Of a DNA stretch of 32,741 nt, positions 3,506 through 25,405 are shown piece after piece (the stretch's first letter is position 1; every line of letters begins with the position of its first letter). The DNA comes from Desulfurellales bacterium. Its GTDB lineage: Bacteria; Campylobacterota_A; Desulfurellia; Desulfurellales; Hippeaceae. The stretch is taken from positions 1 through 32,741 of the forward strand of contig JALVUQ010000071.1 of NCBI GenBank assembly GCA_027035575.1, in the 5' to 3' direction. The notes beneath the pieces are model-generated. The model saw only the letters and a list, made by a program, of their open reading frames with translations, was not told where the DNA came from and did no database searches. The translations under genes were made by a program, and so were the position numbers.

Positions 3506-4666
3506 TTAAAAGTTAATCTCAGAAGCATAGTCAATGTAAGGTAAAATTCTTGGTGGTCCTCTTGTAATTGGAACATAATTGTTTTCTGATTTCCTTAGAC
3601 TATAAGGTCTTTCTAAATTTTTATATATCATTTCTCCAGGGTCATAATATGTTTTATTTATATAGGATTGATAGTATCCTGTAACAAAAAGACATCCTAA
3701 ATTATATGAAGTGACAAGTGCAGTGATAGCTGCGGAAGCCCACAACCTTTTCATATACTCAATTTGATTCTCCAAAGGTAAGTTGTGAGCATATACAAGA
3801 CCTTTGTAAAAGAGCTCTCTCCTTTCTTTCAGTGGTAAGTTTTCGTTATCTTTGTATTCTAAAATCTTATCTAAAGTTCCGTGCTCTGTTATTTTTGGTA
3901 TAATCAGGTCGTATATCATCTCTTTCTTTTTATCCAAGTCCACATGGAAGAATAAGCTTCCTAATCTTTCTCCACTACCTGGATAATATGTTTCAAATAA
4001 TGAAGATGAGAACATCTTTATACAATAATCTGAAACCTCACTATGGTCTGTTTTGTTACTTTTATACCCTTCATCTACTAAAAAGGATAACATCCTATCA
4101 ATACCTTCAAGATAAAATGACATTAATCTATTATTTTTAACTTCTGTAACTTCTCTTAATTTACTTGGTGATTTAATAAATGAAGAATTGTAAGATAATT
4201 CTAATAATATCATTTCATTATAAAACATAGGTTCATATTTAGCTCTTTTCAGGTCAAAATGTCTTCCTTGGTTAAATCCTTTTTGTAAATCTAAATAAAG
4301 CATTGCAGTTCTATAATCTTCCCACGTTTCATCTGAGTCGAACATGAATTCCCATGCATCATACAAAGTATCATCACCTGTTCTTGCATAATATTCAACA
4401 AGCATAGGAGGTACTTTATTAAATGTTTCTGTTATTAAATTATATCTTCTTCTTGCCTCTTTCTTAGAATAGTCGTGAAAGCTGAAGTAGAAGTCAGCAA
4501 TTTTAAGCTTTTCTTCTAACCTTTTGCTCATTCTTCTTCTTTTTCTAGCTTCTGCATCCTTTGGAATCAGTGCAAAAGGAGAAGAGACAAAAGCCAGCCC
4601 GCCCAATCCAAAAAGAATATTTCTAACAAACTCCCTACGCCCCGACCTTTTTTCAAAACCACTCAT
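3506..4666 (-). CDS. Unrecognised protein with Tat-like signal peptide
   Basis: 386 residues, ATG at 4666. The N-terminus has a twin-arginine motif GRREFVRN at about residues 9-16, then a hydrophobic stretch (ILFGLGGLAFVSSPFAL) and a possible cleavage near DAEA, so export by the Tat pathway is plausible. The rest is hydrophilic, rich in Tyr, Glu, Lys and Arg, probably helical, and has no cofactor-binding motif that I can identify; a more hydrophobic segment (SAAITALVTSYNLGCLFVTGYY) lies near residue 320. The C-terminus contains a Pro-rich ITRGPPRILPY segment. It stands alone: a terminator follows it and a divergent promoter region precedes it. Function unknown; it could be a periplasmic partner of a Tat-exported enzyme, but nothing here shows that. 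Confidence 0.75.
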   Translation of the reverse strand: MSGFEKRSGRREFVRNILFGLGGLAFVSSPFALIPKDAEARKRRRMSKRLEEKLKIADFYFSFHDYSKKEARRRYNLITETFNKVPPMLVEYYARTGDDTLYDAWEFMFDSDETWEDYRTAMLYLDLQKGFNQGRHFDLKRAKYEPMFYNEMILLELSYNSSFIKSPSKLREVTEVKNNRLMSFYLEGIDRMLSFLVDEGYKSNKTDHSEVSDYCIKMFSSSLFETYYPGSGERLGSLFFHVDLDKKKEMIYDLIIPKITEHGTLDKILEYKDNENLPLKERRELFYKGLVYAHNLPLENQIEYMKRLWASAAITALVTSYNLGCLFVTGYYQSYINKTYYDPGEMIYKNLERPYSLRKSENNYVPITRGPPRILPYIDYASEINF

Positions 4667-4700
4667 CTATCTTCACCTTAAACCAAATCTATTTAGGTAA

Positions 4701-4729
4701 TTTGTAATACATAATTTAGTGGATGTCAA
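4701..4729 (-). promoter_or_regulatory. Sigma70-type promoter, leftward
   Basis: On the minus strand TTGACA (4724-4729) and TACAAA (4701-4706) are separated by 17 bases. It is correctly placed to transcribe the Tat-signal gene starting at 4666. Confidence 0.6.
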
Positions 4730-4738
4730 ATAGAATTT

Positions 4739-4783
4739 AACCACCCATTTTTCACACCTACGAAGTGTGAAAAATGGGTGGGT
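4739..4783. repeat. Near-perfect 17-bp inverted repeat between divergent promoters
   Basis: Bases 4741-4757 are exactly complementary to 4765-4781, with a seven-base spacer; two or three more bases pair on each side if one base is bulged. It has the shape of an intrinsic terminator, but no gene in the window is transcribed into it: the leftward promoter starts at its left edge and the rightward promoter at its right edge. It may be an operator, a cruciform or a transcription insulator. Confidence 0.85.
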
Positions 4784-4787
4784 TTTG

Positions 4788-4816
4788 TTGAAGATTAAGC
4801 GGTAATGTAATATAAT
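4788..4816 (+). promoter_or_regulatory. Sigma70-type promoter of the partner-switching operon
   Basis: TTGAAG (4788-4793) and a perfect TATAAT (4811-4816) are separated by 17 bases, placing the transcript start near 4823, about 36 bases before the STAS gene. The -35 box begins five bases after the inverted repeat. Confidence 0.7.
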
Positions 4817-4858
4817 TTAAAACTTAGAATATTTTGCAGACATACTAAGGGGGTGAAG

Positions 4859-5170
4859 ATGGGGTTGAAATTTGAAGAAAGAAGCGGCGTTTTGGTTATA
4901 GAAATTGATGATAAGCTTGATTTCTTGAATGCCAAAGAGATTTACGACAAAATTGAAGAAAAGCTTAAAAACTGCGATACGGACGTTGTATTTAATTTTG
5001 AAAATCTTGACTACATCAGCAGTGCGGGCCTTCAGATTCTTATATTTACCGCAAAAAACAGAAAAACTTTAGGCAAAGGCGTGTCTGTTTATAAGCCGAA
5101 CAGTATGGTGGATAGTGTTATAAATGTTGCGGGTTTTTACTCCTTTTTGAAGAAGACTGAAGAAATTTGA
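4859..5170 (+). CDS. STAS-domain anti-sigma factor antagonist (SpoIIAA/RsbV-like)
   Basis: 103 residues, one STAS domain. In this family the unphosphorylated antagonist binds an anti-sigma or HATPase kinase and is inactivated by phosphorylation of a conserved Ser. The motif NLDYISSAGLQIL contains that site; by alignment with SpoIIAA the target is Ser55. I chose ATG at 4859 rather than GTG at 4853 because AAGGGGG at 4847-4853 is five bases upstream of the ATG and overlaps the GTG. It is the first gene of a three-gene operon with a HATPase kinase (one base downstream) and a PP2C phosphatase, which supplies the complete phosphorylation cycle. The final target, a sigma factor or another effector, is not in the window. 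Confidence 0.9.
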   Translation: MGLKFEERSGVLVIEIDDKLDFLNAKEIYDKIEEKLKNCDTDVVFNFENLDYISSAGLQILIFTAKNRKTLGKGVSVYKPNSMVDSVINVAGFYSFLKKTEEI

Positions 5171-5171
5171 A

Positions 5172-5567
5172 ATGACAAGAGTGCATCTGAGCTCTACTAC
5201 TATAAAAGATGCCCTGAAGATAGCGGATAATTTCTGTAAAAACCATTTGAAAGAGGAAAACGAGCTCTGTTTTAAGATTATGCTTGTCTATGAGGAACTT
5301 TTGACAAACATTTTTAAGCACTCCGTAAAATTGGGTTCTACGTTTGTCGATATTGAGATGAAAAACAAAAACAACGCTGTTGTCATAGAATTTGTGTATG
5401 ACGGAGGTGGGTTTGACCCCACAAACTACAGAGATAAAAGGATTGATGAGCCGTTCAGCGAAAAAAAGGAGGAGGGCGGTTTCGGTCTTTTTCTTGCTGC
5501 TGAATTTTCAAAGAGGTTTGAATACAAAAGAGCGGAAGGTTTGAATAGAATATATGTTGAAGTTTAA
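5172..5567 (+). CDS. RsbW/SpoIIAB-type HATPase anti-sigma kinase
   Basis: 131 residues, a stand-alone GHKL ATPase domain. The N-box EELLTNIFKH (residues 41-50) includes the Mg-binding Asn46; the G1 box DGGGFDP and the G2 box EGGFGLFLA follow. Such proteins phosphorylate the STAS antagonist and hold a target protein inactive. The start ATG lies one base after the stop of the STAS gene, and the end overlaps the phosphatase gene by 14 bases, so all three are co-expressed. The spacing between the boxes is as in RsbW-type rather than histidine kinases, and no HisKA domain is present. The target cannot be named from the sequence. Confidence 0.88.
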   Translation: MTRVHLSSTTIKDALKIADNFCKNHLKEENELCFKIMLVYEELLTNIFKHSVKLGSTFVDIEMKNKNNAVVIEFVYDGGGFDPTNYRDKRIDEPFSEKKEEGGFGLFLAAEFSKRFEYKRAEGLNRIYVEV

Positions 5568-7431
5568 CAGTATAAAAACAAAGCTCATATTTTACCTCAT
5601 ATTTGCGCTTATACCTGTTTTTGCAGTTTTGCTTTATACCGGAGAAAATTATATGAAGGATATTCTTTATAAAAACGCTCTTTTGAATGCCCAAATGCTG
5701 GCTTCTGAAGCTGCAAGAGACATAAAGGATATCACATCTGCCGTATCGATGAAGCCTAAGGAGATAGCTAATTTAGCCGGAAATAATATATTGGATATAG
5801 ATAAAATAAACGAGCTTATGAGATTAGACGTTAAAAACGACACTCTCATTTACGGTATGGCTTTATCTTTTTTGCCTGAATATTCGCCAAAGGGAGGCTA
5901 CTACTGCAGCTACTACTACATACATAACGGAAAAGTGAAGGCAAAACAGCTTATACCTCCGCTTTATGACTACACAAAATTTGACTGGTTCAAAAAACCT
6001 CTGAAGCTTAAAAAAAGCATCTGGAGTAAGCCGTATTTTGACAAAGGCGGCGGTAATATATGGATGAGCACATACAGCGTTCCGATTTTTAATGGAAAGG
6101 ATAAAGTTATAGGCATAGCAACAGCGGATGTGAGTATAGAGTTTCTGTCAAAAATCATAAGAAGAATAAAGGTTCTAAAAACCGGAGGAGCATTTTTGTT
6201 TACAAAAGACGGAGACGTGCTTGCGCCTTTGGGCGATAAAAATGTTATGAAAAAAAGCATAGCCGAAATTTTAAGCCATTACGGTAAGCAAAAGTTTAAG
6301 GATTTGGCATCTGCCGTGTTTGAAAAAAAAGGAGGCTACAGCAGCATACATACAAACAAATCGCAGTATCTCATTTACTATACGCCTATTCGCGGTACGG
6401 ACTGGATAGTTGGTGTGGCTTTTCCAAAAAGCGAGCTTTTTCTTCCGATGCAGAAGGTTAAGCTATACTCCTTTGCACTCATACTTGTCGGACTTTTTTC
6501 GGTTGTTGTTTTGATAATCTTTATATCAAAAAATGTTACCGGTGATATAGAAAGAATCAGAGCAATATCGCTGAAGATAGCAAAGGGTAATTTTGACGTT
6601 TCAATACCCGATGATTTTTCTGACGAATCGAAAAGCGTGGCGGATGCTTTGGGCGTTATGCAGAAATCCTTAAAGAAGTTTATGAAAGAGGTTGAAGAAA
6701 AGGCGAAGATGGAGAACGAGCTGAAACTTGCAAAAGCAATACAAAGCTCATTTATACCCAATGAAATGAAGTTGAAAATAGATAATATGGAGTTTAGGGG
6801 CATAAGTATGTGGGCAAAGCAGGTTGGAGGCGATTTCTACGGCGTCAATAAAATAGACGAAAACAGGGTTTTGTTTTATCTTGGCGATGTCTCGGGGAAG
6901 GGCATTCCGGCTGCTTTGTATGTTGCCATATTAAAGAGTATGGTTGAGGTTTTGGTTAAGCAAACGGGCTCTGTAAAAACTATTGTAACATTTCTAAACA
7001 ACTATCTGTCGGATATTGTAAAATCCAATGCATTCTCTACGATGTTTACGGGCGTGATAGACAAAAAACAAAACACGCTTGAGTACTGCAACGCAGGACA
7101 CATACCGCCTGTTGTATTCAAAAACCGTGCAGTATCCACACTTATCATAAAGGGAAATGTGCCAATCGGCGTTTTTAACGACTTTGATTTTAAAATAGAC
7201 ACAATCCCGCTTGATATGTTTGACGGTATGCTGATATACAGCGACGGCGTTACGGATGCTTTAAATGCAAGCGGTGAAGAGTTTGGTGAAGAGAGGGTTT
7301 TGGAGGTTGTAAAAAAAGGTGTGGAAGATAGTTCTGACATCGTGTCGAATTTGAAATCAGCGATAGATTCTTTTGTGGGGGAAGCGGAATTGTATGATGA
7401 TACAACCGTTCTTTGCATAAAGAAAAGTTGA
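5554..7431 (+). CDS. Membrane sensor phosphatase: Cache-HAMP-SpoIIE/PP2C (RsbU-like)
   Basis: 625 residues. A first membrane helix (LIFYLIFALIPVFAVLLY, about 10-27) is followed by a periplasmic double-Cache-type sensor region (about 35-295) with the usual Trp/Tyr-rich strands (WMSTYSVPIF, YLIYYTPIRGTDWIVGVAF). A second helix (about 305-327), a HAMP domain (to about 385), a short coiled coil (MENELKLAKAIQSSFIP) and a SpoIIE-type PP2C domain (about 410-625) follow. Metal-binding motifs are visible: GGDFYG, LGDVSGKGIPAALYVA, YCNAGHIPP, YSDGVTDA and DDTTVLCI. It should dephosphorylate the STAS antagonist when an external small molecule is sensed. The start codon ATG at 5554 lies inside the kinase gene. 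The ligand is unknown. Confidence 0.92.
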   Translation: MLKFNSIKTKLIFYLIFALIPVFAVLLYTGENYMKDILYKNALLNAQMLASEAARDIKDITSAVSMKPKEIANLAGNNILDIDKINELMRLDVKNDTLIYGMALSFLPEYSPKGGYYCSYYYIHNGKVKAKQLIPPLYDYTKFDWFKKPLKLKKSIWSKPYFDKGGGNIWMSTYSVPIFNGKDKVIGIATADVSIEFLSKIIRRIKVLKTGGAFLFTKDGDVLAPLGDKNVMKKSIAEILSHYGKQKFKDLASAVFEKKGGYSSIHTNKSQYLIYYTPIRGTDWIVGVAFPKSELFLPMQKVKLYSFALILVGLFSVVVLIIFISKNVTGDIERIRAISLKIAKGNFDVSIPDDFSDESKSVADALGVMQKSLKKFMKEVEEKAKMENELKLAKAIQSSFIPNEMKLKIDNMEFRGISMWAKQVGGDFYGVNKIDENRVLFYLGDVSGKGIPAALYVAILKSMVEVLVKQTGSVKTIVTFLNNYLSDIVKSNAFSTMFTGVIDKKQNTLEYCNAGHIPPVVFKNRAVSTLIIKGNVPIGVFNDFDFKIDTIPLDMFDGMLIYSDGVTDALNASGEEFGEERVLEVVKKGVEDSSDIVSNLKSAIDSFVGEAELYDDTTVLCIKKS

Positions 7432-24706: not shown

Positions 24707-25405
24707 ATGGGTAAGAAGATAACGGAAAACGGATATCTTATGCACTGCTCGGAGGAGTGTGATTTGGAGGGGGTTAAAAAAGCAGTTAAAAACGGTGCCA
24801 AAGTGAATTACAAAAACAAACTCGGCGAAACTCCTTTAATGAAAGCCGTTGCAGGTAACTGCATTGATGTTGTGAAATACCTTTTAGAGGAAAAAGCAAA
24901 GGTCAATGCTAAAAATATGTGGGGTAACAGTGTTTTAATGGAGGCTATCGTAGCGGATGCAGACCTTGAAATAATAAAATTACTTATAGAACATGGCGCT
25001 TATGTGAACTCTACCGATAAATGGCTCAACACACCCTTAATGGAAGCCTCTCGAAGGGGCAGACTGGATATAGTCAAGTATCTAATTGAAAAGGGTGCAA
25101 AAATAAACGCACTGAACAGATATGACAATACACCACTAATGGCAGCTTCTGAAGGAATAATGGGAGAAGGTTTTATAGATATAGTCAAGTATCTCATTGA
25201 AAAGGGCGCGGATATAGACGTTCAGGATACCGTCGGAGAAACTGCGCTTATAAAAGCGGCTTTCAGAGATAATCTCGATATAGTTGAGTATTTGATTGAA
25301 AAGGGAGCCGATGCCTCCTTAAGGGATGTAAACGATTACACCGCCCTAAAGAAGGCACAGCTCGCCAGCGCTCATAGAACCGCAGATTTCCTTAAAACGC
25401 TATAG
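24707..25405 (+). CDS. Ankyrin-repeat protein
   Basis: 232 residues made almost entirely of ankyrin repeats, about six full units of 33 to 37 residues from about residue 8 to the end (for example GETPLMKAVAGNCIDVV, LNTPLMEASRRGRLDIV, GETALIKAAFRDNLDIV). The fifth unit carries a four-residue insertion (GIMGEG region). No signal peptide is seen. Such proteins bind other proteins; the partner is unknown. I chose ATG at 24707 after AAGGGGG (24694-24700 region); a TTG one codon before is also possible. Two repeats are nearly identical at DNA level. It is a single-gene unit that ends one base from the convergent cytochrome gene. Confidence 0.92.
   Translation: MGKKITENGYLMHCSEECDLEGVKKAVKNGAKVNYKNKLGETPLMKAVAGNCIDVVKYLLEEKAKVNAKNMWGNSVLMEAIVADADLEIIKLLIEHGAYVNSTDKWLNTPLMEASRRGRLDIVKYLIEKGAKINALNRYDNTPLMAASEGIMGEGFIDIVKYLIEKGADIDVQDTVGETALIKAAFRDNLDIVEYLIEKGADASLRDVNDYTALKKAQLASAHRTADFLKTL

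Follow-up and report, generated by a model that had tools for sequence, protein, structure and literature searches.

The perfect inverted repeat at positions 4741-4781 of the analysed window, meaning the whole stretch of 32,741 nucleotides, is very probably a copy of a RAYT-associated palindromic repeat of the REP/TIR-like kind. It is most likely an orphan palindrome, produced by a RAYT system and itself non-autonomous, and thus the remnant of a mobile element and no dedicated gene switch, and it is not primarily a regulatory feature of the Tat-signal and STAS genes on its two sides. The features of the locus are as follows.

3506-4666, minus strand: 386-aa protein with a twin-arginine signal (RREFVRN); ORF and profile searches
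4701-4729, minus strand: promoter of the Tat-signal gene, TTGACA-17-TACAAA; direct reading
4741-4781, no strand: inverted repeat, one copy of the palindrome family; sequence, Markov copies, folding and genome copies
4752-4770, plus strand: core of the family, TCACACCTACGAAGTGTGA; pattern search
4758-4761, minus strand: GTAG tetranucleotide (CTAC on the plus strand) in the loop; direct reading
4788-4816, plus strand: sigma70-type promoter of the partner-switching operon, TTGAAG-17-TATAAT; promoter scan
4853-7431, plus strand: partner-switching operon; ORFs and profile searches
4853-5170, plus strand: STAS antagonist, first gene of the operon
5172-5567, plus strand: HATPase_c_2 kinase of the operon
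5554-7431, plus strand: Cache-HAMP-SpoIIE phosphatase of the operon

The hairpin between two divergent promoters

The arms CCACCCATTTTTCACAC (4741-4757) and GTGTGAAAAATGGGTGG (4765-4781) pair at 17 of 17 positions around the loop CTACGAA (4758-4764). The sequence-only reading had described a perfect 17-bp stem with a seven-base loop, which direct reading confirmed and with which the fold and Markov controls agreed, though the span given then, 4739-4783, included two bases per side that lie outside the perfect pairing. The stem is the longest among the perfect hairpins of the 32.7-kb window, followed by one of 10 bp, whereas 20 sequences generated from the window by a first-order Markov model had longest perfect stems of 8-11 bp. 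The DNA fold has an energy of -19.4 kcal/mol (z = -7.65 versus shuffles). A chance origin of the 17-bp hairpin is excluded, and the structure is non-random. An Rfam search of the hairpin returned chance microRNA-type matches alone, far under the gathering scores.

The hairpin lies 11 bp from the -35 box on the Tat side and 6 bp from that on the STAS side. The Tat-side -35 box TTGACA (4729 to 4724, minus strand) is perfect and is followed 17 bp on by a weaker -10 box, TACAAA. This promoter is absent from the promoter-scan output; it is identical in the related genome G006, and its 17-bp spacing is supported because the orthologous Tat gene of G015 carries TTGACA-17-TATAAA. The STAS-side -35 and -10 boxes are conserved in G006 and G013 and close in G002. 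The 386-aa Tat-signal protein had no Pfam or NCBIfam match, and of 20 relatives, G006 and G015 alone were found to carry its gene.

The promoter reading upheld the earlier placement of the hairpin between the two divergent -35 boxes, outside both predicted transcripts, and the earlier claim that it terminates neither flanking gene also stands, as no gene transcribes into it. For the same reason, a bidirectional terminator placed between the two units to halt stray or antisense transcription is extremely improbable, even though a GC-containing stem followed by GTTTTGTT gives the pattern a terminator-like look. At an intrinsic terminator, the transcript ends in a hairpin followed by a U-run; here, two outward promoters and a weak T tract are found instead. 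The T-rich tract falls within the stem; the plus strand has a weak 3' tail and the minus strand none. On the plus strand, TTTAA precedes the stem and GTTTT follows it.

An intergenic repeat family and RAYT genes in relatives

With up to 3 mismatches allowed, the core TCACACCTACGAAGTGTGA gave 18-19 matches in the window's genome (11 on the plus and 8 on the minus strand), of which one place was counted on both strands, so that the copy number is about 18, while a reversed-pattern control gave 0-1. A genome search for further copies of the arms had been proposed in the sequence-only reading. A BLAST search with the 301-bp hairpin region against its own genome gave 15 further matches, one of them the hairpin against its own other arm, and all were confined to the hairpin area. 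The inspected core loci are intergenic, except for two that touch the ends of doubtful ORFs. Many copies are paired about 290-550 bp apart within intergenic repeat mosaics, and the arm sequence beyond the core differs from copy to copy. Covariation of the arms among copies was weak: 235 of 400 arm pairs were formed versus 211 expected when right arms were dealt to other copies (maximum of 239 in 2000 shuffles), and selection for a long stem is therefore not claimed.

The mosaics at L013:1280-2080, L011:240-700, L010:1400-2000 and L009:1180-1640 (contigs C8, C12, C63 and C52) join palindromes to degenerate tandem repeats of the TAGTGATTAGTGA type. They also carry a second, longer inverted repeat, CAAACAACGGATTAT ... 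ATAATCCGTTGTTT, which looks like a separate MITE. At the C45 locus, the window's genome has a single palindrome (L012:1394-1436), the flanks of which are split between two contigs in G002, each of them ending in a palindrome-bounded repeat mosaic (L244/L236), and are likewise split between contigs in G004; these are simple and composite forms of one site. Elsewhere in the window, at 25067-25319, three 43-nt direct repeats spaced about 100-111 bp apart would, judged by eye, give ankyrin-like units GATATAGTCAAGTATCTAATTGAAAAGGGTGC if translated.

The palindrome directly brackets a gene for a RAYT/TnpA_REP protein, an HUH tyrosine transposase, in four genomes of three lineages (G009, G002, the Thermodesulfovibrio MAG contig L105 and the Omnitrophota MAG L098), and the bracketing palindromes match the 17-base core exactly, with A or G at the variable base. 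In the single-contig genome G009, all four copies fall within 1.5 kb around the RAYT gene, two palindromes upstream and one downstream, the fourth copy having 2 mismatches. In L105, the bracketed gene is an ORF of 222 aa immediately flanked by the palindrome on either side, and the RAYT homologue of L098 lies between the same palindromes. The AAG subtype of the core is one base off TCACACCTACGAGGTGTGA, the form that brackets most RAYT genes. Y1_Tnp (PF01797) matches the bracketed genes, including the 222-aa ORF; NCBIfam REP_Tyr_transpos matches the bracketed proteins at E values of 1e-18 to 1e-22, slightly below its curated cut-off, and the G009 protein matches the solved TnpA_REP 4ER8 at 1.7e-6. 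In the aligned RAYT proteins, the HUH motif PTH[ILF]H and the Tyr motif RY[IV]HLNP are invariant.

A second, divergent RAYT gene of G002 (64% identical) has CTTGCACCTCGTAGGTGCAAG on both sides, with the same centre and different arms, and exact copies of CTTGCACCTCGTAGGTGCAAG in G002 occur beside this gene only. More divergent RAYT genes of the same branch have other palindromes at their ends, such as GGCAACCTCGTAGGTTGCC in G099. The centre CGTAGG is common to several, not all, of the palindromes of divergent RAYT genes, and GTAG stands at the centre of most RAYT-bracketing palindromes in the branch.

The palindrome could alternatively be the binding site of a genome-wide regulator, and a conserved, intergenic, near-palindromic core of 17-19 bp would suit such a regulon. 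However, many copies are paired or clustered in repeat mosaics rather than placed singly at promoters, their arms vary outside the core, and the core adjoins RAYT genes in different phyla, so that a regulon is very unlikely. An integron attC site was also considered, on account of flanking ATTTAAC/GTTGAAG motifs and the hairpin clusters, and was rejected, since the structure is a short hairpin with a near-perfect stem and the RAYT genes are bracketed by this palindrome too.

The multiple intergenic copies in the window's genome are what a RAYT-associated palindromic repeat would present, whereas profile and homology searches of this assembly (96.33% complete) gave no PF01797 or RAYT match, and hence no cognate transposase gene. 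Copies also occur in G004, G012 and G013, where no RAYT gene of the same branch was found. We therefore describe the copies as descended from a RAYT system rather than as a complete one, and infer the pairing of palindrome and transposase from the relatives, in which the palindrome directly flanks the RAYT gene.

The core was present in 9 of the 99 genomes of the relatives search, mostly of the same family. Exact copies were found in MAGs of Desulfurellales, Nitrospirae/Thermodesulfovibrio and Omnitrophota, in a Microgenomates-group bacterium and in a Campylobacterales bin; the Desulfurellales loci in this list have the same coordinates as loci in several of the relatives (e.g. WGCD01000027.1 and G002:C27), and the window is placed in this order on that basis. 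A longer exact pattern of 27 nt had no match in the viral and genome collections. The Nitrospirae MAG G103 has the shared core together with several copies of a sister palindrome, TCACACTTCCGAAGTGTGA, likely a second family.

History of the locus

G006 and G013 have the hairpin in the corresponding position ahead of the STAS gene. The STAS gene of the window is 87% identical at the DNA level to that of G002, 84% to that of G004, 70% to that of G006 and 68% to that of G013, whereas the stretch from the hairpin to the STAS start is 94% identical in G013 and 86% in G006 and only 75-76% in G002 and G004. Positions 4667-4858 thus have a mosaic ancestry, the intergenic block being closest to another genus (86-94%) and the adjoining STAS gene to its own relatives (84-87%). 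By this sequence comparison, a putative recombination breakpoint lies near the STAS start. The hairpin, which two relatives retain, is old at this locus. With the intergenic block and the STAS gene pointing to different genera, arrival by recombination is probable; the simplest reading is that the Tat gene, the intergenic block and the hairpin were probably imported together from a g5-type donor of another genus, in a tract ending near the STAS start.

These data bear on the proposals of the sequence-only reading that the hairpin is an operator shared by the divergent Tat and STAS promoters or an insulator against read-through, that is, the site of a dimeric regulator or a roadblock dedicated to these two units. 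The short distances to the -35 boxes and the retention of the hairpin at the orthologous site in G006 and G013, where the intergenic DNA is 86-94% identical, would favour such a role, but import from another genus accounts at least partly for this high identity. G002, of the same genus, has a different, longer foldback at the site, of which contig C8 of the window's genome carries a relative. In G015, the Tat gene has retained its promoter but lacks a hairpin, and the hairpin is thus not required for the persistence of the Tat promoter sequence. Considering also the roughly 18 copies in unrelated intergenic places and the same sequence bracketing transposase genes, a dedicated operator or insulator is unlikely and neither proposal held as the first explanation, though the hairpin may form a cruciform or have a secondary regulatory effect.

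Upstream of the composite repeat that G002 carries at the STAS locus, at a distance of about 0.5-0.8 kb, is an ORF (L138:2-328, contig C50) that by eye resembles the C-terminal part of an IS110-type transposase. In Pseudomonas putida, the element ISPpu9 is reported to be located within REPs (PMC8450116).

The probable RAYT-derived repeat and systems already described

REP elements and REPtrons of RAYT/TnpA_REP transposases have been described in E. coli, Pseudomonas and Stenotrophomonas (PMC2817692, PMC8266576, PMC6006769). The palindromes described here resemble REPtrons in being short, intergenic and present several times per genome, in bracketing a single HUH-tyrosine transposase gene and in that each transposase has its own variant, a pairing typical of REPtrons and TIRtrons (PMC8266576, PMC6006769, PMC3733652). 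In contrast to canonical REPs, which have GTAG or GTGG at the 5' foot of the hairpin, the window's palindrome has GTAG at the apex, in the loop at 4758-4761 on the minus strand, and membership of the canonical REPs is therefore not claimed. The palindrome is also nearly symmetric, copy numbers are tens at most, and the HUH motif PTH[ILF]H differs from those of the tabulated RAYT subclasses, in which the first His is preceded by D or N.

TIRtrons, in which TIRYT transposases occur with TIR repeat families (PMC3733652; mostly subclass 2.1 in PMC6006769), likewise comprise RAYT-like genes flanked by inverted repeats other than GTAG-footed REPs. Some TIRtron repeats are self-complementary and some are moderately abundant elsewhere, as here, and subclass 2.1 shares the Tyr motif Y[IV]HLNP. 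However, the published TIR consensus GGGGWSAS mismatches TCACACCTACGAAGTGTGA, and by reading, no motif of this type occurs in the core or the RAYT-bracketing copies. PMC3733652 makes no mention of Hippea or Nitrospirae, and the exact core string was not found in the literature searched. The hairpin ends of IS200/IS605 elements are similar in having related Y1 transposases and subterminal hairpins, but the genes between the palindromes are matched by TnpA_REP/REP_Tyr_transpos, and a complete IS in repeated copies was not seen; in G012, G014 and G015, the typical IS200-like proteins (about 150-bit matches) are not bracketed by the palindrome.

Considering these results, we propose the following scenario for the repeat. 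From the anatomy and by analogy with known TnpA_REP enzymes, a TnpA_REP-type HUH-tyrosine transposase would recognise a folded single strand of the palindrome (PMC8266576) and would cut and rejoin the DNA beside it, which would spread copies through intergenic DNA. The transposase may then have been lost from the window's lineage, with copies remaining, including that at 4741-4781, which would have no essential regulatory role. Against the RAYT-repeat reading, an assembly completeness of 96% leaves room for a missed RAYT gene, about 18 copies is low for a REP family, the one other locus compared (C45) gave no clean empty site, as the contigs of the relative break within a repeat mosaic, and conservation at the site in three genomes is unneeded for a purely parasitic copy.

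We tentatively suggest, at somewhat less than even odds, that a distinct RAYT branch is common to the Desulfurellales, Nitrospirae and Omnitrophota MAGs and recognises near-perfect palindromes with GTAG at the apex rather than the foot, the centre being fixed and the arms changing with each transposase, and that orphan populations of the palindrome remain once the transposase is lost and still pass from one lineage to another. An apparently regulatory hairpin is here explained as mobile-repeat debris, a trap for promoter annotation. The relatives provide a compact set of RAYT-palindrome pairs from deep-branching bacteria, with an apex-GTAG geometry outside the scope of current recognition models, which were built on foot-tagged REPs.
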